The notes: generated by a model not told the origin, from the letters alone. A DNA stretch of 22,169 nt from Fidelibacterota bacterium (GCA_021734045.1 JAIPJR010000050.1:1-22169); one strand, 5' to 3'; shown: positions 5,388-16,651, counted from the first letter of the stretch. Numbers and translations are program-made.

Positions 5388-6461
5388 ATGGCACTCATCA
5401 CCAATAAGAGAACACCTTCCGGAAGCAGCTGGCGCGAATTCTTTCGATACACGCTAGTCTTATTCATTCTGCTGGGGCTCATTATTTATGCCTTGCTTTC
5501 AGCCTGGTTAGGCGGGCGCGGTTCGGGCACCCGGTCAGTTGTGATTTACGGTTTCAGCATTTTGGGCGATGTCATGGATAAGGCTGTATTGCCCGCATTC
5601 CAGCAGCAATGGTATGAGAAAACCGGTGAAGAGATTGGCTTCATCACCTCCTTTGCCGGATCAGGTGAAATTACCAGCCAGCTGGTGCAGGGGGTTCCTG
5701 CAGATATCGCCATCCTTTCCACCGAATCGGATGCCATCATTCTCATGGAGAAGGGCGTAATCCCCGGCCCTACCTGGAAAAACCTGCCCTATGCAGGTGT
5801 TCTTAACCAGTCACCCATGGTCATTTTAGTCCGGCCGGGTAATCCTCATCAGATAGCAGATTTTTCTGATTTGGTGAGTGGAGATTTTGAGTTGATTCAT
5901 CCCCATCCGCTCACATCCGGGGGTGCACGCTGGGCTATTTTGGCTGAGTACGGTTCTGCGTGGTTTACCTCTGGCCGTCCTGATCTGGCGATCCAGCAAC
6001 TCACCGGGATTTGGCATCAGGTCGGCGAAATGCCGGTTTCCGCCCGGGTCGCACTGAATAATTTCCGGAATGGGGTGGGTGATGTTTTTATTACCTATGA
6101 GCAAAGTTTTCTTAGGGAAACTTCACTTGAAAACCTGGCGTGTGACGTTGTTTATCCCCGCAGCACCATATTCACCGAACACACGGTTGTGCGTCTGGAT
6201 AGGCACATTAAGGCAGGTCATGAAGCGCTGGTGGATCGGCTCCTGCAATTTCTTTGGAGTCGGGAGGCACAGGAGATTTTTGTCCACCACGGTTTTAGAA
6301 GTGTTGATGCGGCTTTAAACGAGCTGAACCCGGCATTCGGGATGATTGAAAAACCCTTTACGGTAGAGAATTTAGGTGGCTGGCGAGTGGCAGATCAGAC
6401 CATTATTAGGGATGTGTGGCGAGATAAAATTTTTTCGCAGATAGCGAATACTCACAACTAA
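5388..6461 (+). CDS. Sulfate/thiosulfate-type ABC transporter substrate-binding protein, N-terminally membrane-anchored
   Basis: This 357-residue protein belongs to the sulfate/thiosulfate (Sbp/CysP) periplasmic binding family. The segments FAGSGEITSQLVQGVPADIA (about 86-105), HPLTSGGARWAILAEYG (about 171-187), NGVGDVFITYEQSFL and the C-terminal EIFVHHGFRSVD correspond to the family's anion-binding and hinge regions. The N-terminus has a basic stretch and a hydrophobic helix (about residues 20-42, YTLVLFILLGLIIYALLSAW) with no lipobox Cys, so it is either a signal anchor or a long signal peptide. It is about 20% longer at the N-terminus than classical Sbp. It lies upstream of the c-di-AMP riboswitch and so is probably expressed separately from the main transporter operon. 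It has a second, more typical relative 1.1 kb downstream. Confidence 0.85.
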   Translation: MALITNKRTPSGSSWREFFRYTLVLFILLGLIIYALLSAWLGGRGSGTRSVVIYGFSILGDVMDKAVLPAFQQQWYEKTGEEIGFITSFAGSGEITSQLVQGVPADIAILSTESDAIILMEKGVIPGPTWKNLPYAGVLNQSPMVILVRPGNPHQIADFSDLVSGDFELIHPHPLTSGGARWAILAEYGSAWFTSGRPDLAIQQLTGIWHQVGEMPVSARVALNNFRNGVGDVFITYEQSFLRETSLENLACDVVYPRSTIFTEHTVVRLDRHIKAGHEALVDRLLQFLWSREAQEIFVHHGFRSVDAALNELNPAFGMIEKPFTVENLGGWRVADQTIIRDVWRDKIFSQIANTHN

Positions 6462-6589: not shown

Positions 6590-6718
6590 AAATGTCTGTC
6601 GCCGAATCGGTCCGCCTTTGGCGCACCGAACGGGGAACCCACTTAAAAGGGGTGAATCCCGCACCAGCGTGAGGAGTACCTTCTCACTCCAACCCGTCAG
6701 CTAACCCCGTAGGCATTT
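6590..6718 (+). ncRNA. c-di-AMP riboswitch (ydaO/yuaA class) aptamer
   Basis: Several conserved blocks of the ydaO/yuaA (c-di-AMP) aptamer appear in the correct order. They are GCCGAATC (6601-6608), GGGGAACCCA (6632-6641), GGGGTGAATC (6649-6658), and AACCCGTCAGCTAACC followed by CCGTAGGC (from 6691). The P1 helix closes perfectly: AAATGTCT at 6590-6597 pairs with AGGCATTT at 6711-6718. The next stem pairs 6608-6616 with 6620-6628 (one C-C mismatch). ACCC at 6637-6640 pairs with GGGT at 6650-6653, and GTGAG at 6669-6673 pairs with CTCAC at 6683-6687. The class senses cyclic di-AMP and usually turns expression off when the ligand is bound. The terminator just downstream fits that mode. It leads into the DUF2490-sbp-cysTWA unit. 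Confidence 0.92.
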
Positions 6719-6740
6719 GAAGGGACGCCGAAGCCGAACT

Positions 6741-6775
6741 CAGGGCGCAGACGACAATGCAGCCCTGTTTTTATA
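6741..6775 (+). terminator. Riboswitch expression platform: intrinsic terminator
   Basis: CAGGGC (6741-6746) pairs with GCCCTG (6762-6767). The stem is continued by GCA with TGC around a bulged A and closes an 8-base loop. TTTTTAT follows directly. The hairpin starts 22 bases after the aptamer's P1 helix and 190 bases before the first gene, so it can only act on the leader transcript. This is the arrangement of an attenuating c-di-AMP off-switch. The competing antiterminator pairing is not obvious by eye. Confidence 0.85.
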
Positions 6776-6778
6776 TAT

Positions 6779-6837
6779 GGACAGATCTTTCCGGGAGCGT
6801 GAATGTAAATTATACGGAAACGACAGAAAGATTGTCC
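6779..6837 (+). other. Long stem-loop in the operon leader, downstream of the riboswitch terminator
   Basis: GGACA (6779-6783) plus ATCTTTC (6785-6791) pairs with GAAAGAT (6826-6832) plus TGTCC (6833-6837). This gives 12 base pairs with a single bulged G at 6784. The 34-base loop could form a smaller internal pairing (CCG with CGG), and TTTCCG can alternatively pair with CGGAAA at 6815-6820. No T-run follows, so it is not a terminator. It could be a stability or processing element of the antiterminated transcript. Confidence 0.55.
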
Positions 6838-6930
6838 CTTCCTAAGCGCTGTGTGCGTTCTAATAGGACGTTTATGATATCAATGTGGATGATGAGTAAA
6901 TGAACAGCAAAAAGATGAAGGATTGAGCAA

Positions 6931-7575
6931 ATGTTGAGAAAATTATCGTTTCTTTTGGTTGTCATGGGTGTTTTGGTCTGGACGAATCCCCTTCAGGCCG
7001 ACGACTGGCGTAATTGGAGTGATATAAGTGTGAGTGGCAAAATCAATGCAGACTGGGGTTGGAAGGTCGCTGCCGAGGCACGGTTCAGTGATAATGTCTC
7101 TGATTACAATTACACTCATTTCGACATGATTGTGAGCTACAAAGTGTTGCCCTGGCTGGGGATCTCGCCATCGTATCGACACATTATTACCGAGAGCGGA
7201 ACGGACTGGAATACGGAGAAACGCCCGCAATTAGACATTAACCTGAGCCGCAAAGTTGGGGAAATGCAGTGGTCCGATCGCAACCGTTTTGAATTTCGTT
7301 TTCGGGATTCCGGTGAGTCTGTTCGATACCGCAACAAGCTCACCGTTAAAATTCCCCGGTTACAGCTCTGGCAGCTCCAACCCTACCTGGCTGATGAGAT
7401 TTTTTATGACCTTGAAGCAGAGGTGCTGAATAAAAATCGGATATACGCCGGTGTAAATATCCCGGTTCTGGCGAATCTCCAGGTGGAGGTGGGGTATGTG
7501 CGGGAGAGTAGTAAAATTTTGGATGACTGGAACGGAGTCAATGTCCTCTGGACAGCTTTGAAATACAGCTATTAA
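6931..7575 (+). CDS. DUF2490 family outer-membrane beta-barrel protein
   Basis: A 214-residue exported protein. A signal peptide of about 23 residues (MLRKLSFLLVVMGVLVW, cleavage after LQA) is followed by alternating strands such as WGWKVAAEARFSDNVSDYNYTHFDMIVSYKV, WLGISPSYRH, RNRFEFRFRD and LQVEVGYVRE. The protein ends in Tyr (ALKYSY), an outer-membrane barrel ending. Layout and length match DUF2490, a family of small barrels without an assigned transport substrate. AAGGA at 6918-6922 precedes the ATG by eight bases. It is the first gene after the c-di-AMP riboswitch and lies 35 bases from the sulfate-binding lipoprotein gene. It may therefore provide the outer-membrane route for the same anion, but that is inference from position only. 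Confidence 0.8.
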   Translation: MLRKLSFLLVVMGVLVWTNPLQADDWRNWSDISVSGKINADWGWKVAAEARFSDNVSDYNYTHFDMIVSYKVLPWLGISPSYRHIITESGTDWNTEKRPQLDINLSRKVGEMQWSDRNRFEFRFRDSGESVRYRNKLTVKIPRLQLWQLQPYLADEIFYDLEAEVLNKNRIYAGVNIPVLANLQVEVGYVRESSKILDDWNGVNVLWTALKYSY

Positions 7576-7610
7576 AGGACTTTGTGCTTTTAAAAAAAGA
7601 GGGGGAAATG

Positions 7611-8660
7611 ATGAAAGCAAAATCTTGGAGAATAGCCGACCCGGCAGGGGGGCTGATCGTGCTCTTTACCCTGTTGCTCTGGAGTTGCGGGGGCAAACCT
7701 GCCGGAGATAAGACAGTATCGCTGACGCTGGGTGCCTATACAGTTCCCAAGGAGGCGTATGAGCGGGAGATTATCCCGGCCTTCAAGACCTATTGGCAGG
7801 AAAAAACCGGCGAAACGGTTACTTTTAATGAGTCCTACACCGCCTCCGGTGCCCAGTCCCGTGCCATTGCCAGTGGTTTCGACGCGGATATCGCAGCGCT
7901 CTCGCTGGAGCAGGACGTCCAGCGTCTGGTGGAAGTCGGTCTGGTCACACATGATTGGCGAGCGACGCAGTTTAGCGGCATGGTGACCCGTTCCATTGTG
8001 GTCATGGCCTATCGGGAGGGCAATCCCAAACGGATCACAGGTTGGGAGGATCTGACCCGCCCGGATGTGAATGTTATTTACCCCAGCCCCAAGACGTCCG
8101 GTGGTGCTATGTGGGTGGTAAATGCCATTTATGGCGCGGCATTGAAGCATTCGGAAATTTTATGGGGTGAGCCTGATCCAAATTTTGCCTATCGACGACT
8201 CAGGGAGATTCAATCCCGTGTGCAGGTGATGGATAAGTCAGGCCGGGCGTCGGTGACCACATTCGAAAATGGCATCGGAGACGTCCTGCTTACCTATGAA
8301 AATGAGGTTTTACTGCGCAAGAGTCAGGGCAAGGCAATGCCGTTTCTCGTTCCGGATGCTACGATTTTGATAGAAAATCCGATCGCGGTGGTGGATAAAA
8401 ATGTGGAAAAGCATGGTAACCGCGCGGTGGCGGAAGCATTTGTTGCATTTGTGAAAACGGCGTCGGCGCAGCGTGCGTTTGCGCAGTATGGCTTCCGACC
8501 GGTGGACCCTGATATCGCAGAGGAATTCCTGGCGAAATTTCCTGTCCCCAAACACCTGTTCACCATCCAGGACCTGGGTGGATGGCCGCAGGTACACCAG
8601 CAGCTTTATGCCCAGACGGGTATTTGGATGCAAATCGTGAATGAATTAGCGCACCAATAG
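7611..8660 (+). CDS. sbp: Sulfate/thiosulfate ABC transporter substrate-binding lipoprotein
   Basis: A 349-residue binding protein of the Sbp/CysP family, which captures sulfate or thiosulfate in the periplasm and hands it to CysTW. Family segments are SYTASGAQSRAIASGFDADI, YPSPKTSGGAMWVVNAIYG, FENGIGDVLLTYENEVLL, IENPIAVVDKNVEKHG and FAQYGFRPVDPD. The N-terminus has a hydrophobic stretch ending in the lipobox LLWSC, with Cys26 as the acylation site, so the protein is membrane-tethered. Two ATGs lie at 7608 and 7611; the second has better spacing (five bases) from GGGGG at 7601-7605. A GTG at 7584 would spoil the signal peptide. It sits 15 bases before cysT. It is related to, but clearly distinct from, the binding protein at 5388-6461. 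Confidence 0.92.
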   Translation: MKAKSWRIADPAGGLIVLFTLLLWSCGGKPAGDKTVSLTLGAYTVPKEAYEREIIPAFKTYWQEKTGETVTFNESYTASGAQSRAIASGFDADIAALSLEQDVQRLVEVGLVTHDWRATQFSGMVTRSIVVMAYREGNPKRITGWEDLTRPDVNVIYPSPKTSGGAMWVVNAIYGAALKHSEILWGEPDPNFAYRRLREIQSRVQVMDKSGRASVTTFENGIGDVLLTYENEVLLRKSQGKAMPFLVPDATILIENPIAVVDKNVEKHGNRAVAEAFVAFVKTASAQRAFAQYGFRPVDPDIAEEFLAKFPVPKHLFTIQDLGGWPQVHQQLYAQTGIWMQIVNELAHQ

Positions 8661-8675
8661 TAGGCTGTAGAAACC

Positions 8676-9479
8676 ATGTCTGAACGGTGGAGCGATTTTA
8701 TCCAGCGCAGTCTCATGTTCTTTTATCTGGGACTGCTGATTCTTTTGCCTATTGTTGCGATCACCGTTGCCTCCCTGGAGCAGGGGATTGCGTCGTTGTG
8801 GGGAAATATAACCACACCTCAGGCACTCTACGCGCTACGACTCACCATTACAACAGCCATCATTATGGTTGTGTTAAATGTGGTGATGGGGACGCTCACA
8901 GCGTTCGTGCTGGTACGATATAATTTCCCCGGGAAAAATGTCATGAACGCGCTCATTGATCTGCCTTTTGCCATCCCCACCGTGGTCACCGGAATTATGC
9001 TGGTGATTTTGTATGGCCCCAACAGTGTGCTGGGAACGATGTTCAGTGGCTGGGGGATTGAGGTCATTTTTGCCAAGCCGGGGATTATTCTGGCATTGCT
9101 GTTTGTTTCATATCCCTTCGTGGTACGGGCGGTTCAGCCGGTCTTGCAGGATTTAGGGCCGGATATGGAGAATGCGGCGCGCACGTTAGGCGCCGGGAAA
9201 TTGCGCATTTTCTTCCAGGTAACGCTACCGGCGCTTTTACCCGCAATCCTTACCGGAGCCGCGCTCTCCTTCAGTCGTGCCATGGGTGAATTCGGCTCTA
9301 TTGTGGTGGTTGCGGGCAATATTCCCCTCAAGTCCCAGGTAGCTGCCGTGTACATCTATGGTGAATTGGAAAGCAATAATCCACAGGGTGCGCTGGGACT
9401 CTCAGTGGTTTTGCTGATCATCTCATTTCTGGTATTGCTGGTGTTGAATTTTCTTCAGCGACGGAAATGGCAGGTTTAG
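8676..9479 (+). CDS. cysT: Sulfate/thiosulfate ABC transporter permease CysT
   Basis: A 267-residue permease with about six transmembrane segments: LMFFYLGLLILLPIVAITVA, YALRLTITTAIIMVVLNVVM, DLPFAIPTVVTGIMLVIL, PGIILALLFVSYPFVVRAV, a helix around 185-205 and LGLSVVLLIISFLVLLVLNF. The EAA loop that docks on the ATPase is ENAARTLGAGKLRIFFQVTLP (about 165-185). The family phrase SRAMGEFGSIVVVAGNIP follows. It forms the membrane channel with CysW and is energised by CysA. The length matches CysT (about 270-280 residues). It is spaced 15 bases after sbp and four bases before cysW. Confidence 0.93.
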   Translation: MSERWSDFIQRSLMFFYLGLLILLPIVAITVASLEQGIASLWGNITTPQALYALRLTITTAIIMVVLNVVMGTLTAFVLVRYNFPGKNVMNALIDLPFAIPTVVTGIMLVILYGPNSVLGTMFSGWGIEVIFAKPGIILALLFVSYPFVVRAVQPVLQDLGPDMENAARTLGAGKLRIFFQVTLPALLPAILTGAALSFSRAMGEFGSIVVVAGNIPLKSQVAAVYIYGELESNNPQGALGLSVVLLIISFLVLLVLNFLQRRKWQV

Positions 9480-9483
9480 CTAA

Positions 9484-10311
9484 ATGATGATGAATAACAC
9501 CTACACCAAATCAATCCCGATCGGCCGATGGAGTCTGATAGCCATCACTATCATCTGGTTTTTGTTACTGATTCTGGTCCCGGTAGGGGGATTGATACAA
9601 AAATTGTTGGCCAGTCCTGTTGCAGAAACTCTCCAGGGATTGACCACAAAAGCTGCTGTGAATGCCTTTCTGCTCACTATTAAAGTCACTGTGATCACCA
9701 TCCTGATCAATACAGTTATGGGTGTGCTCATGGCACGGGTGCTGGTAAAACAGAATTTTAAAGGTCGTTTGCTTATCGAGGGACTGATTGACCTGCCATT
9801 TGCCATTTCACCCGTGGTGGCAGGATTCATGATTGTGATACTTTTCGGACCCTACGGCTGGTTAGGTGGGTGGCTGGAAGGAATGGGTGTGAAGGTAGTC
9901 TATTCCGTACCCGGAATCATCCTGGCAACCATTTTTGTCACCCTGCCCTTTGTAGCCAAGGAGGTTATACCGGTTTACAGGCAATTTGGGCAGCAGAGTG
10001 AAGAGACCGCGCAGGTGATGGGTGCTTCCCAGTGGCAGACCTTTTGGTGGATCACGCTTCCATCCATCAAGTGGGGCGTCATTTATGGTGTAACCCTGGC
10101 GCTGGCCCGTTCACTGGGAGAATTTGGTGCCGTGCTGGTGGTGAGCGGCAATATCATCGGTCAAACCCAGACAGCGACGCTCTACATACATCAGCAGTTT
10201 ACCGACTTTGATTACAGTGGTGCCTATGCCGCATCATTGGTCATTGCGATGGTTGCCTTCACCATCCTTATCGTCATTCAAACCATCACCAATCGTCACC
10301 GGGAAGCATAA
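9484..10311 (+). CDS. cysW: Sulfate/thiosulfate ABC transporter permease CysW
   Basis: A 275-residue permease paired with CysT. It shares IDLPFAISPVVAGFMIVILFGPYGWLG, PGIILATIFVTLPFVAKEVIPV, the EAA loop EETAQVMGASQWQTFWWITLP (about 178-198) and ARSLGEFGAVLVVSGNIIGQTQTATLYIH, which is characteristic of CysW. Three in-frame ATGs (9484, 9487, 9490) compete; the first follows CAGG at about nine bases. The gene is separated from cysT by four bases and from cysA by one base, so translation is likely coupled along the operon. Confidence 0.93.
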   Translation: MMMNNTYTKSIPIGRWSLIAITIIWFLLLILVPVGGLIQKLLASPVAETLQGLTTKAAVNAFLLTIKVTVITILINTVMGVLMARVLVKQNFKGRLLIEGLIDLPFAISPVVAGFMIVILFGPYGWLGGWLEGMGVKVVYSVPGIILATIFVTLPFVAKEVIPVYRQFGQQSEETAQVMGASQWQTFWWITLPSIKWGVIYGVTLALARSLGEFGAVLVVSGNIIGQTQTATLYIHQQFTDFDYSGAYAASLVIAMVAFTILIVIQTITNRHREA

Positions 10312-10312
10312 T

Positions 10313-12196
10313 ATGTCGATTGTCATCAACAATTTACGGAAGCAGTTTGGTCACGCCCTGGTGGTGAATAATGTGTCACTGGAAATTCAGGAAGGTGAAT
10401 TGTTTGTTCTCCTGGGCGCCAGCGGGAGCGGGAAGAGCACCATCTTGCGAATCATTGCCGGATTATTGGAGCCTGATAGTGGCAGCGTGACGATTAATGG
10501 TGTGGACATGACCCATGTGGACGCCCGTAAGCGTAATGTGGGGATGGTATTTCAAAATTATTCCCTGTTTGGGCACCTGACGGTTTTTGAGAATGTGGAA
10601 TTCGGTCTGCAGGTGCGGAAACTGCCAAAAGCGCAGCGGCGGAACCGGAGTAAAGAATTGCTGGAAGCGGTTGGGCTTACGGGGCTGGGGCATCGATACC
10701 CTGCGCAACTTTCCGGTGGTCAGCAGCAGCGGGTGGCCGTGGCCCGGGCATTAGCCTACAATCCCAGGGTATTGCTAATGGATGAGCCGTTTGGTGCACT
10801 GGATGTGAAAATCAGAGGGACATTGCGGCAGAACTTGCAGGAGATCCAGCGCCGATTGAATGTGACCACCATTCTGGTAACGCACGATCAGGAAGAAGCA
10901 TTCGAATTAGCGGACCGGATTGGTGTCATTGAGCGGGGGCAGTTGATTGAAATCGGTCCGCCGGATGTGTTATACCATCACCCAAAAACTGAGATTGTGG
11001 CGACTTTCATCGGTGGTGGAAATATACTGGTTGGGCGTGAGGAGGAGGGGCGTATCCGGCTTGGGAAGGTCTTTTTACCGATGCCGGACCAGGCGCCATT
11101 GCATGCCCAAGGCTCTCCCGTGAGGGTTTTGTTTCGCCCTGAAACCGTTGTCCTCAGCCGGGAAGCGTTTTCTAACGCGTCGGGGATTTATCCCCTGGGA
11201 CAAGGTCGTGTATTGAAGCGCATTTTCAATGGACCAGTGCAACGCCTGGTGCTTGAGATGGAGGAACTGGCCGGTGTACGACCGCTGAAACCCGTTCCGC
11301 GCTATGGTCAACCCCGAACACGCATCGAGGTCGTGGAAACCACCACGGGACTACATCACGGGGCGCGCTTTGATGAGACTTTATGGGTAGGCGTGCGGGA
11401 TTACCATATTCTGGAACCCTCTGGTATAAAATTCCTGGTGTACACGGGCAGTCCGGAACGAAATCCGGCAGCGCAGGAATTAGCGCTGCATCTGGGACAG
11501 TTAACCAGGGGAGCTGTGACGCTGTTCTCAGTGGTTTCCAATGATATGGAAATGTCAGAGGTGCAAGCAGAAATGGAGCGTATTCAGAATGTCTGGCAAG
11601 AGCGGATTCCACTTCTGACCACGGAAGTTGTCAAGGGTGAGCGTCATGAGCAGGTTTACCTGAAAACCCAGTCCGGCATTTATGATATTTTGGTTGCAGA
11701 CCCAAAATTTACTGGCCAGCATGAGATGAAACCGGCGCTGCAAAATTTGTTAGAAGAAACCCTCCTGCCTGTATTAACGGTGAGTCAGTCTCAGAAAGGC
11801 ATCTTGCATATCTTAATCTGTACGGCGGCCGGTGAGCCGGGGAAGAGCGATGTGCAGGTAGGCGGGCGATTGGCCATGCGTGCCCACGCAAAAGCCACGG
11901 TTTTTAGTGTCTTAACCTCACCAGATGATCAGGTCGAGACCAGGCGTGTAGAACAGCATTTGGAGCAAGCCCGACAATCCCTTACAGGCTTGGGAATTGC
12001 ATGCGACACGCGTCTTGGTTTGGGTGAGCCCATGGCAGAGATTTTTAACCAGGCCGCCAAACCGGCGTATGACCTGGTTGTTCTGGGGGCACCGTTACCG
12101 CAAGCGCCCCAGCGTATTCACTGGCCGGATGTGGCACAGCGTATCACCCGTGAATTGAACAAACCGGTATTGCTTGTCCCCATGATGACAACGTAG
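10313..12196 (+). CDS. cysA: Sulfate ABC transporter ATPase CysA fused to two UspA-like domains
   Basis: A 627-residue protein; ordinary CysA has about 330-365 residues. Residues 1-235 are a complete ABC ATPase: Walker A GASGSGKST (35-43), Q-loop Q81, signature LSGGQQQR (133-140), Walker B LLMDEP (154-159) and H-loop H191. Residues about 236-365 form the CysA regulatory/TOBE part (VRVLFRPETVVLSR and the RPETVVL region, then DETLWVGVRDYHIL). Two further alpha/beta domains follow. Residues 372-493 (IKFLVYTG to PVLTVSQS) and 496-627 (ILHILICTAAGE to KPVLLVP) each have the universal-stress-protein pattern, with YDILVAD and YDLVVLGAPLP before the final PVL strand. The ATP-binding GxxGx9GS motif of Usp is absent. 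The start is the ATG at 10313, one base after cysW; an earlier frame (10208) would overlap cysW by 104 bases. Confidence 0.92.
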   Translation: MSIVINNLRKQFGHALVVNNVSLEIQEGELFVLLGASGSGKSTILRIIAGLLEPDSGSVTINGVDMTHVDARKRNVGMVFQNYSLFGHLTVFENVEFGLQVRKLPKAQRRNRSKELLEAVGLTGLGHRYPAQLSGGQQQRVAVARALAYNPRVLLMDEPFGALDVKIRGTLRQNLQEIQRRLNVTTILVTHDQEEAFELADRIGVIERGQLIEIGPPDVLYHHPKTEIVATFIGGGNILVGREEEGRIRLGKVFLPMPDQAPLHAQGSPVRVLFRPETVVLSREAFSNASGIYPLGQGRVLKRIFNGPVQRLVLEMEELAGVRPLKPVPRYGQPRTRIEVVETTTGLHHGARFDETLWVGVRDYHILEPSGIKFLVYTGSPERNPAAQELALHLGQLTRGAVTLFSVVSNDMEMSEVQAEMERIQNVWQERIPLLTTEVVKGERHEQVYLKTQSGIYDILVADPKFTGQHEMKPALQNLLEETLLPVLTVSQSQKGILHILICTAAGEPGKSDVQVGGRLAMRAHAKATVFSVLTSPDDQVETRRVEQHLEQARQSLTGLGIACDTRLGLGEPMAEIFNQAAKPAYDLVVLGAPLPQAPQRIHWPDVAQRITRELNKPVLLVPMMTT

Positions 12197-12769: not shown

Positions 12770-14212
12770 ATGACGATTGTTGATTATTTTATTTTCGGCA
12801 CCTACATGTTGGTGGTTTTAGGGGTTGGTTATTATTTCTACCGGAAGAACGAGACCGCGGAAGATTATTATGTGGGCGGGCGGAATATTTCCGCCGGACA
12901 TATTGGTTTATCCATTGTGGCTACCGATGTTGGTGGTGGCTTTTCCATCGGTTTGGGTGGGCTAGGGTATGCCATGGGTTTGTCAGGAAGCTGGCTCTTA
13001 TTCACCGGTCTGGTAGGTGCATGGCTCTCTGCAGTATTCATCATTCCCAAGATTAAGCTGCTGGATAAGAAGCATGGTATGATGACCTATCCGGACTTCC
13101 TGCGACATCGTTACAGCCCCAGAGTTGCGTTGGTGGCAGCGGTGATCTCAGGAATTGGGTATTTGGGATTCACCAGCGGGCAGATTCTGGCCGGCGCCAA
13201 ACTTATGGCTGGTTCAGTCATCAAGACCGCACCATTCGGCATGACTGACCTCCAATTTTCCCTCTATGTCATCGGTGTAATTATCGTGGGTTATACCGTT
13301 TTGGGTGGATTGAAAGCAGTTATCTACACCGATACCATTCAGTGGATAATTTTGCTGTCAGGTCTCACCTTTTTCGGTGTCCCCTTCGCCTTGCACGAAG
13401 TGGGCGGGCTCTCCGGCCTGAAAGCGGCTTTACCGGATGGCCATTTTAATCTCACGAATATCAGTTTTATCCAGTTCTTTAACTGGTTTATCACCATTGT
13501 ACCCATCTGGTTGGTGGCCATGACACTCTACCAGCGCATGTTTGCCACGCGGAATGTAAAGGAAGCAAAACGCGCCTGGTATATTGCCGGTGTATTCGAA
13601 TATCCCATCATGGCTTTCATCGGCGTCATTCTGGGGATGTTTGCCCGGGTGGTTGTGCCGGGTGTGGACCCGGAGATGGGTGTGCCAATGTTGCTGAAAA
13701 CCGTCTTACCTATCGGATTAACGGGAATAATAGTGGCCAGTTATTTTTCGGCCATCATGTCCACGGCTGACAGTTGCGTTATTGCCTCTTCCGGAAATTT
13801 TGTAAATGACCTGTTGGAACGAAGCTGGCTGAAAAATGCCAGTAGAAAGCGGGTGATGCGCTGGTCGATGATTACCACGCTCATCGTGGGTGCCTTGGCC
13901 ATTCTCATTGCTGGTCAATTTACCACGGTATTGGATGCCATTTTATACGCTTATGCCTTCATGGTATCCGGTTTATTTGTCCCCACTCTGGGTGCTTATT
14001 TCTGGAAGAAGGGCACTGCAGCCGGCGCTTTCTGGGGGATGATCCTGGGGGGTGGCGTAACGCTGGTGCTGCTCATCGCAGGTGTGGAAATGCCCTGGCA
14101 ACTGGATCCCACTTTTTACGGCATTGTCATCAGTGCCATTGTATTTTACATCATATCCATCGCAAAACCGGACGAAACTGAAAATGAGGTTCCGGAGGTT
14201 CTAGATGCCTGA
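12770..14212 (+). CDS. Sodium:solute symporter (SSF family)
   Basis: A 480-residue inner-membrane transporter with about 13 hydrophobic segments. SSF features are [27 protein letters not shown] (30-56), [21 protein letters not shown] (175-195), [17 protein letters not shown] (253-269) and [10 protein letters not shown] (326-335). The last is the segment supplying the Na2-site hydroxyls in this family. SSF proteins couple sodium influx to uptake of proline, glutamate, pantothenate, sugars and other solutes; the substrate is not readable here. Its end overlaps ablB by eight bases, so the symporter is cotranscribed with the acetyl-beta-lysine genes. It could supply lysine or a compatible solute, which is inference. 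AGGAAGG about 11 bases upstream is a loosely spaced ribosome site. Confidence 0.9.
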
Positions 14213-15089
14213 CAAACTTGAAACGATCGGTCGTTCTCAGATTCAACACGGTCCGGAGAATGATCGGGTTTACCTCATGCATCTTGCGCCGGAAGATATG
14301 CCGGAAATCCTGGTGAAGTTAAATGACTTGGCAGGGAAAAATCAGTACGGCAAGATTTTCGCGAAAGTCCCAGGTGAATTTAGCGATACCTTTGTGGCGG
14401 ATGGTTACACTGTGGAAGCGCGCGTTCCGGATTTCTTTCACGGCGAAACCGAAGCCGTATTCTTGGGGAAATATTTCAAGCCGGAGCGTGAGCAAGAGCC
14501 GAAACCGGAGTTGGTGGATGAAGTGCTTGCGGTAGCCCAATCAAAATCCGGCGGTGAGACCGTTGAGGAATTACCGTATAAATTTCGCCTGGCCACACCC
14601 CAGGATGCCGAGTCCATCGCGGCGGTTTACCGGAAAGTATTCGCAACCTATCCATTTCCCATTCACGATCCGGCTTACATCGCTGATACAATGGCCTCAA
14701 ATTTTCTCTATTTCACCCTGTGGGAGGGAGAGGAACTTGTGGCTGTCGCCTCCTGCGAGATGTATCCTGAGGAGAAAAATGTGGAGATGACCGATTTCGC
14801 CACACTGCCGAAATATCGTGGGAAAGGAACAGCCGTTTACCTCCTGGAGCGGATGGAACAGGTTATGGCGCAGCATGAGTTGAAAATGGCTTATACCATC
14901 GCCCGGGCTTATTCGTTCGGTATGAATATTACGTTTGCAAAACTGGGCTATGTCTTTGGAGGGACATTGACCCGGAACACCAACATCGCCGGCTCTCTGG
15001 AGAGCATGAATGTATGGTATAAACCCCTGCCGGAATTGGTTTCCGGCGTAGATGGGGAAATGACTCCAAACACGAATTTTGAATTTTGA
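14205..15089 (+). CDS. ablB: Beta-lysine N-epsilon-acetyltransferase
   Basis: A 294-residue enzyme that acetylates beta-lysine with acetyl-CoA to give N-epsilon-acetyl-beta-lysine, a compatible solute. The N-terminal half (about 1-95, with [18 protein letters not shown] and [21 protein letters not shown]) is characteristic of the AblB family. The C-terminal half is a GNAT domain: [26 protein letters not shown] (127-152), acetyl-CoA loop [11 protein letters not shown] (204-214) and the family's ending [20 protein letters not shown] with SMNVWYK. The length agrees with AblB (about 270-290). GGAGG precedes the ATG, which overlaps the symporter's last codons. The gene sits 32 bases before ablA, the classical pairing, here in the order B-A. 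Confidence 0.9.
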
Positions 15090-15121
15090 TATAACATGAC
15101 AATCCCTGAAGGAGATCCATC

Positions 15122-16651
15122 ATGAGTTCAGAAATAATTAAGGGTTCCTCACCCGATATAAAAAAGAAACCCACACCTCAACCTAATCCCGCGCCGGAAC
15201 CGATCGACCAACCGATGACCGTGGGTGATCTGCCGGAGGAGATTGCGGAAGTTCCTCGGCTTCAGCCTTTGGTGGGAGAGGCGATTCCCGATCCCATCAA
15301 AGATCCGGTTGACGAGAGTGAATTGGTGCATCGTGATTTTGAGGAAGATGCGTTTTGGAAGCACATCCCGGCGTTTCGTGATGTGACCCGGGAAGAGTTC
15401 CTGGACTACAAATTCCAGAATAAAAACAGCGTTACAAAAGTGAAAGACCTGCAGGAAATGCTGCAGGGATTAGCCAGCCCTGAATTTATCAAAGACATCG
15501 GGGACGGTATGGCACAAGCGCCCATGAATATGCGCCTGTCACCCTATGTGTTGAGTCTGATTGATTGGGAAAATCCTTACGATGATCCCTTGCGGCGTCA
15601 ATTCATTCCAGTGGCCTCCACTGTTGTGAAGAACCATCCCAAATTATCACTGGATTCGCTCCATGAGCAGGAGGATTCACCAACACCGGGATTGGTGCAT
15701 CGTTATATCGACAAAGCGCTGTTTTTGCCGCTGGATGTTTGTCCGGTGTACTGCCGGTTCTGCACCCGCAGCTATGCCATCGGTACTGATACGGATTCGG
15801 TGGAAAAGGTCAATTACAAATCCAATCCCAAGCACTGGAACAAGGCCTTTGCCTATCTGGCCAGTCGTCCGGAAATCGAGGACGTGGTGATTTCCGGTGG
15901 TGATACCTACATGCTGTCAGCGCAGCGGGTGAAGGATATTGGCGAAACATTATTAGCCATTCCTCACATCCGCCGTCTGCGTTTTGCCACCAAGGGACCG
16001 GCCATCATGCCCATGAAAATTCTCACCGATCATGACTGGACCGATGCGTTGGTCGGTGTTGTTGAACAGGGACGGAAAATGGGGAAAGAGGTGGTCCTGC
16101 ATACCCATTTCAATACGGTTAACGAAATTACCGATATATCCCGCGAAGCCATGAATTTGCTGTTCAAGCGAGGCGTGAAGGTGCGTAACCAGAGCGTGTT
16201 GATTCGTGGTGTCAATGACAATGCGGATAAAATGATTAATCTGGTGAAGCAGCTTTCTTATATGAATGTCCAGCCATATTATGTGTACCAGCACGATATG
16301 GTTCAGGGTGTTGAGGAATTGCGTACCCGCATCGCCGATACCGTGGAGATTGAACGCCATGTACGCGGTGTAACGGCCGGATTTAACACACCGACATTTG
16401 TCACGGATGTCCCGGGTGGTGGCGGAAAACGGGATGTGCACAGCTATGATTACTACGATGAAGTCACGGGTGTGAGCGTGTATCGCAGCCCCAGTGTGGA
16501 TGAGGATAAAGTTTACCTCTATTTCGATCCCATTGACCTTTTGCCGCCGGAAGGACAGGCGCGCTGGGCTGACCCCAAAGAGCATGATGCCATCGTGGAG
16601 GAAGCAATCCGGGCAGCCGGTCTTTCTGATCTGGATCTCGCCGTGGAGTAA
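15122..16651 (+). CDS. ablA: Lysine 2,3-aminomutase (radical SAM, PLP), long variant
   Basis: A 509-residue radical SAM enzyme converting L-lysine to beta-lysine, the first step of acetyl-beta-lysine synthesis. The cluster motif CxxxCxxC is C207-C211-C214 (VCPVYCRFCTR), followed by Arg216, the equivalent of the substrate-carboxylate Arg. VVISGGDTYML (255-265) matches the SGGD SAM/PLP segment. The PLP lysine is K436 in PGGGGKRD. D392 (YQHDMVQG) and D429 (FVTDVPGGGGK) correspond to the two Asp residues that bind the lysine side-chain amine in the clostridial enzyme, and their 37-residue spacing is the same. This argues against glutamate 2,3-aminomutase. It is about 90 residues longer than classical KamA, mostly an N-terminal Pro/Glu-rich tail (15-65), and CTRRR is altered to CTRSY. 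GGAGAT precedes the ATG. Confidence 0.9.
   Translation: MSSEIIKGSSPDIKKKPTPQPNPAPEPIDQPMTVGDLPEEIAEVPRLQPLVGEAIPDPIKDPVDESELVHRDFEEDAFWKHIPAFRDVTREEFLDYKFQNKNSVTKVKDLQEMLQGLASPEFIKDIGDGMAQAPMNMRLSPYVLSLIDWENPYDDPLRRQFIPVASTVVKNHPKLSLDSLHEQEDSPTPGLVHRYIDKALFLPLDVCPVYCRFCTRSYAIGTDTDSVEKVNYKSNPKHWNKAFAYLASRPEIEDVVISGGDTYMLSAQRVKDIGETLLAIPHIRRLRFATKGPAIMPMKILTDHDWTDALVGVVEQGRKMGKEVVLHTHFNTVNEITDISREAMNLLFKRGVKVRNQSVLIRGVNDNADKMINLVKQLSYMNVQPYYVYQHDMVQGVEELRTRIADTVEIERHVRGVTAGFNTPTFVTDVPGGGGKRDVHSYDYYDEVTGVSVYRSPSVDEDKVYLYFDPIDLLPPEGQARWADPKEHDAIVEEAIRAAGLSDLDLAVE

Follow-up and report, generated by a model that had tools for sequence, protein, structure and literature searches.

Cyclic di-AMP (c-di-AMP) has so far been pictured, mostly from work on Gram-positive bacteria, as a messenger that limits the uptake of K+ and osmolytes, and reviews give K+, amino-acid, osmolyte and cell-wall functions as its targets (PMC7266159, PMC9960051, PMC10117811). 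A riboswitch of this class on the osmolyte gene ablA of Dehalobacter responds to c-di-AMP with transcription termination, and bases of its P1 helix pair with the left shoulder of the terminator (PMC9337991). Here, we describe a c-di-AMP riboswitch in a 22,169-nucleotide stretch of DNA from a Fidelibacterota bacterium (GCA_021734045.1, JAIPJR010000050.1:1-22169; the window), located upstream of a sulfate-type ATP-binding cassette (ABC) importer operon. The riboswitch is likely to act from the 5' leader as an OFF switch, through which c-di-AMP controls transcription of the importer genes. Riboswitch and operon are both on the + strand, and positions are those of the window.

The aptamer of the riboswitch spans positions 6590-6731 and matches RF00379, the family of c-di-AMP riboswitches, over 134 of 134 model positions (cmscan, 75.6 bits, E 3.3e-16; the gathering cut-off is 38 bits). 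This strong full-length match bears out the original prediction, made from the sequence alone, of a ydaO/yuaA-class aptamer with its main blocks at 6590-6718. It is the only RF00379 copy in the 2.54-Mb genome, which is 92% complete. The aptamer is predicted to bind c-di-AMP and thereby alter termination. The 5' strand of its P1 helix, GUCUGUCGCC (6594-6603), is also the proposed antiterminator strand, and its UGUCUGUCGCC is invariant in all 14 riboswitch leaders of the phylum.

An intrinsic terminator is located just 3' of the aptamer, as had been predicted. It is composed of the hairpin CAGGGCGC...GCAGCCCUG (6741-6767) and the run UUUUU (6768-6772), with a folding energy of -14.7 kcal/mol in RNAfold; a simple consensus scan for terminators did not list this hairpin. 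The terminator stem covaries across the 14 leaders, with 86.6% of cells paired and 16 cells changed on both sides, a score reached by none of 500 shuffles. The left arm and loop of the terminator contain the sequence GGCGCAGAC (6744-6752), the putative partner of the P1 5' strand, with which it forms a duplex of -16.5 kcal/mol, and keep the motif CAGAC in the 14 leaders (CAGGC in one of them). The pairing of the P1 5' strand with the terminator left arm (GGCUACAGACA) extends over 10 positions, at which 98.6% of cells are paired, and the proportion drops to 27-48% once the strands are slid by 1-3 columns. An unbiased duplex search returned the terminator left arm as the best partner of the P1 5' strand in each of the 14 leaders, and for 12 of them a duplex as good arose in only 0-2 of 200 shuffles.

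We infer that the ligand turns the operon off, because P1 and the antiterminator compete for one strand and the ablA riboswitch provides a precedent (PMC9337991). At low c-di-AMP, the P1 5' strand would pair with the terminator left arm, and the resulting antiterminator would allow the operon to be transcribed. At high c-di-AMP, two ligand molecules would stabilize the aptamer and close P1; the terminator would then form and transcription would stop. The competition between the P1 5' strand and the terminator arm constitutes a simple switching scheme that is open to point mutation.

The terminator is followed by the genes DUF2490-sbp-cysT-cysW-cysA, in the order originally claimed and with no other gene between. 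The first gene (6931-7575) encodes a DUF2490 protein (PF10677, 114 bits), followed by a periplasmic sulfate-binding protein similar to Sbp and SubI (7584-8660; TIGR00971, 213.7 bits, cut-off 155.5), the permeases CysT (8676-9479; equivalog TIGR02139, 286.1 bits, cut-off 246.1) and CysW (9484-10311; TIGR00969, 287.5 bits, cut-off 240), and a CysA-type ATPase (10313-12196; ABC_tran and Usp). The gene set had thus been named correctly, except that cysA carries an unmentioned extra domain of about 300 residues, a C-terminal tandem USP. The sulfate-type assignment holds as well, since CysT and the binding protein pass their sulfate models and the nearest structures of the latter are sulfate-binding proteins. 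The DUF2490 protein is probably an outer-membrane β-barrel, as suggested by its positional parallel with Porin_O_P, which takes its place in operons of Acidobacteriota, and may form an outer-membrane channel for anions. DUF2490 genes also follow TauE and Pst genes under RF00379 riboswitches (L231, L232). The single-sequence AlphaFold2 model of the protein has a predicted local distance difference test score (pLDDT) of 38, too poor to use.

The link between riboswitch and sulfate importer is conserved in the order of the window. Among 23 genomes of the order, cysT is present in four (G000, G001, G008 and G011), which are precisely the riboswitch carriers, and in all four the riboswitch is followed by DUF2490-sbp-cysTW-cysA. 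The chance of this coincidence is 1 in 8,855 for independent genomes, a figure that overstates the case because the genomes are related. The phylum, sampled with 245 genomes, contains 14 riboswitches in 12 genomes. Thirteen can be assessed, as the sequence of L230 runs into Ns right after the terminator stem, and each of the 13 lies ahead of genes for anion transport. Sulfate ABC genes follow five riboswitches (in the four genomes of the order and in G413), and pstSCAB phosphate genes follow four (G557, G560, and G559 twice). Sets containing TauE, DASS or an orphan substrate-binding protein (SBP) follow the remaining four (SBP-TauE-DASS in G486, TauE in G415 and G416, and TauE-SBP in G558). 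The TauE family is named for sulfite export, and the label denotes the family here, with no direction or substrate implied. In this phylum, the RF00379 class would have been turned into a control element for the uptake of anions such as sulfate, phosphate and the substrates of TauE/DASS proteins.

The predicted link to cysTWA operons also recurs in Acidobacteriota, of which 297 genomes were sampled and 52 contain a total of 65 riboswitches. Four of the 65 precede sbp-cysTW-cysA operons (G071, G109, G126 and G357), and two further riboswitch-sulfate operons were found via CysA (G072 and G084). With its conservation across the order and this second occurrence in Acidobacteriota, the pairing cannot be put down to chance in a single genome. 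The commonest acidobacterial targets are of the K+ type: 25 of 68 loci have a KimA-like APC permease and 4 of 68 have Kup, counts that rest on clustering with one representative of each scanned. In several of the acidobacterial sulfate operons, cysW and cysA are separated by a gene for a protein of about 500 amino acids, which is Porin_O_P in L108, the one scanned. The operon of L208 begins with Porin_O_P, and its SBP scores 536 bits on the strict sulfate model NF008022, above the cut-off of 288. Riboswitches of Acidobacteriota also precede genes for proteins of about 650 amino acids (L188:2703-4664 and L225), and the one scanned, from L188, has no Pfam match.

The P1-terminator antiterminator scheme was not found in the acidobacterial leaders, among which only L110 and L212 have clear terminators. 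On a tree of 36 CysA-USP proteins, the riboswitch label requires three changes, at least two of them forced. The label changes and the acidobacterial leaders without this antiterminator fit separate recruitment, on more than one occasion; loss is possible.

Several observations weigh against control of the sulfate importer by c-di-AMP. The association is strict in the order of the window and partial in Acidobacteriota, where the genomes with a closely related cysT have the riboswitch in three of seven cases and none in four of seven. No riboswitch was found beside the CysA-USP operons of Chloroflexota. In the window itself, the antiterminator pairing is shorter than in relatives and marginal, as 19 of 200 shuffles equal it, and G001 is alike (about 180 of 200 beaten); the z-score is -1.5 in G000 and G001 versus -2.7 to -5.3 in the other leaders. 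The P1 helix of the window is degenerate: one of its four pairs is mismatched in Rfam's register, and decay of the outer 3' strand has left GACGCC, versus GACAGA in 9 of the 14 leaders of the phylum. The description of P1 as perfect in the original prediction was therefore overstated. The antiterminator shows no covariation; because both of its strands are nearly invariant, covariation neither supports nor opposes this pairing. The genome also encodes Sat (a 575-amino-acid frame) and a PAPS_reduct protein of the CysD/CysH family, so imported sulfate may feed cysteine synthesis.

The latter genes bear on the purpose of the switch. We tentatively propose, at somewhat less than even confidence, that the riboswitch regulon of this Gram-negative phylum is an anion-import regulon, separately recruited in Acidobacteriota, by which c-di-AMP directly coordinates K+ with inorganic counter-anions. 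Anion import would probably follow the same signal that limits the import of K+ and osmolytes: a low level of c-di-AMP, which signals osmotic need, would let anions be imported alongside K+. This proposal draws support from the mixed sulfate and phosphate targets, from the effect of c-di-AMP on the counter-ion pools of Lactococcus (PMC8092236) and from the ablBA operon neighbouring the riboswitch operon, and is strengthened by the RF00379 riboswitches that precede phosphate operons of the Pst type. A rather unlikely but serious alternative is that the riboswitch serves sulfur nutrition, or phosphorus nutrition in the relatives, or energy economy, with c-di-AMP, which is made from ATP, halting costly ABC import when it is unneeded. 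Sat and CysD/CysH-family genes, present in other sulfate-operon genomes too, are consistent with such a role, as is a gene for an Rrf2-family regulator (L208:1860-2297) that immediately precedes the riboswitch, porin and sulfate genes of L208. The Rrf2 family includes the sulfur regulator CymR. Absence of sulfur-assimilation genes was considered as a discriminator; the genes are present, so the two hypotheses are not separated by it. Against a nutritional role, most known targets of c-di-AMP serve K+, osmolyte or cell-wall functions (PMC7266159, PMC9960051, PMC10117811), and no single nutrient fits one signal acting on sulfate, phosphate and TauE/DASS genes. The uptake of counter-anions is plausible and somewhat ahead of nutrition.

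The weak outer P1 and antiterminator of the window could also mean that the switch is decaying in this genome, leaving little ligand-dependent control, which we consider improbable. Against the altered P1 3' strand and the low z-score stand an intact aptamer core, a stable terminator, and the retention of both the P1 5' strand and its CAGAC target. In G000 and G001, a copy of GGACAGA is located right 3' of the terminator U-run (window 6780-6786), with the same letters as the P1 3' strand lost in both genomes, and the P1 5' strand pairs with this copy in RNAfold. The switch pairing may thus have shifted rather than been lost.

It is similarly doubtful that the transporter carries another oxyanion, such as thiosulfate, molybdate or tungstate, or an organic anion. 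This would be in keeping with the scores of CysA on TIGR00968 (315.6 bits, narrowly under the cut-off of 342.8) and of CysW on the equivalog TIGR02140 (279 bits, under the cut-off of 329), and with the replacement of two residues of the sulfate-binding protein 1sbp, Asp11 by Thr and Trp192 by Tyr. The binding protein nevertheless passes its sulfate model, as does CysT, and scores far lower on molybdate models. It retains the Ser-Gly and Ser-Gly-Gly binding segments, shares the Tyr with SubI, and its sole matches in the PDB are sulfate-binding proteins (6ddn, the lipoprotein SubI of Mycobacterium tuberculosis; 1sbp; 5um2). The cysA gene adjoins cysTW. Sulfate is the most likely substrate as judged from these comparisons.

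Given the complete match to the RF00379 model and the c-di-AMP enzymes of the genome, it is very improbable that the aptamer has diverged within its class to recognize another ligand, although the sequence alone would be compatible with this. A search for a diadenylate cyclase, proposed with the original prediction, identified one DAC protein of 285 amino acids, composed of a CdaA_N membrane domain and a DAC domain, and a PgpH-type phosphodiesterase (7TMR-HDED protein) is also encoded. The DAC motif is RHR; the cyclase (L002:1435-2289) carries GTRHLAALG at the motif site.

The C-terminal 308 residues of CysA are predicted to form a tandem USP fold (AlphaFold2, pLDDT 82.6), with the tandem USP TTHA0350 as the best match in the PDB. 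A further resemblance is to the regulatory domain of cation-chloride cotransporters. The USP domain of KdpD binds c-di-AMP through the motif (A/G/C)XSXSX2N(Y/F) (PMC8214093). CysA resembles KdpD in carrying a USP domain on a protein of ion homeostasis; the motif, however, is absent from both CysA repeats, and the domain was rejected as a candidate second c-di-AMP receptor. CysA-USP fusions occur widely across Chloroflexota, Acidobacteriota and Gemmatimonadota, and most of them have no riboswitch; the fusion is therefore outside the c-di-AMP link.

Just upstream of the riboswitch, an orphan membrane-anchored SBP (5388-6461, + strand; PF13531) is a second SBP of the sulfate family, with 149.5 bits on TIGR00971, just under the cut-off. 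Its relatives occur in riboswitch-adjacent clusters of G486, G558 and G559. The orphan SBP recurs near riboswitches in L227, L229 and L233, and adjoins putative sensors in the latter two. Directly downstream of the importer genes, positions 12770-16651 contain genes for an SSF transporter, AblB (TIGR03827, 338 versus 205 bits) and an AblA of the lysine-2,3-aminomutase family. They form an operon for the osmolyte N-epsilon-acetyl-beta-lysine, without a riboswitch of its own, and the SSF gene keeps its position in G001.

Riboswitch class and transporter are each known; their pairing and its recurrence amount to a real, conserved regulon assignment that is apparently new. No earlier report of sulfate or phosphate importers under RF00379 was found in the readable literature, although an entry in the tables of Nelson 2013 or Block 2010 is possible. 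The repeated occurrence of anion importers as targets suggests that the control exerted by c-di-AMP extends to anion uptake. If true, direct control of sulfate and phosphate importers in separate lineages would add a charge-balancing partner to K+ homeostasis, and the genes and leaders at hand bear on whether c-di-AMP sets total salt, beyond K+ alone.

The locus shares its aptamer family, leader position, terminator and messenger (the cyclase here being of the CdaA type) with the ydaO/yuaA riboswitches of kimA, ktrAB and kdpFABC. The usual targets of the class are K+, osmolyte, amino-acid and cell-wall functions, whereas the target here is a sulfate importer, with phosphate and TauE/DASS genes in relatives. 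The Na+/c-di-AMP tandem riboswitch of Dehalobacter ablA is alike in its OFF response by termination, which we propose for the window, in the pairing of P1 with the left shoulder of the terminator, and in the link between ablA and c-di-AMP; however, the left (5') strand of P1 would pair here, not the right one (PMC9337991). Furthermore, ablBA forms a separate operon in the window and has no riboswitch of its own. The locus shares a theme with Lactococcus, in which c-di-AMP reduces the pools of K+ and of the anions that balance it (PMC8092236). The anions of Lactococcus are glutamate and aspartate, affected indirectly via K+, whereas in the window an inorganic-anion importer would be under the direct control of a riboswitch.

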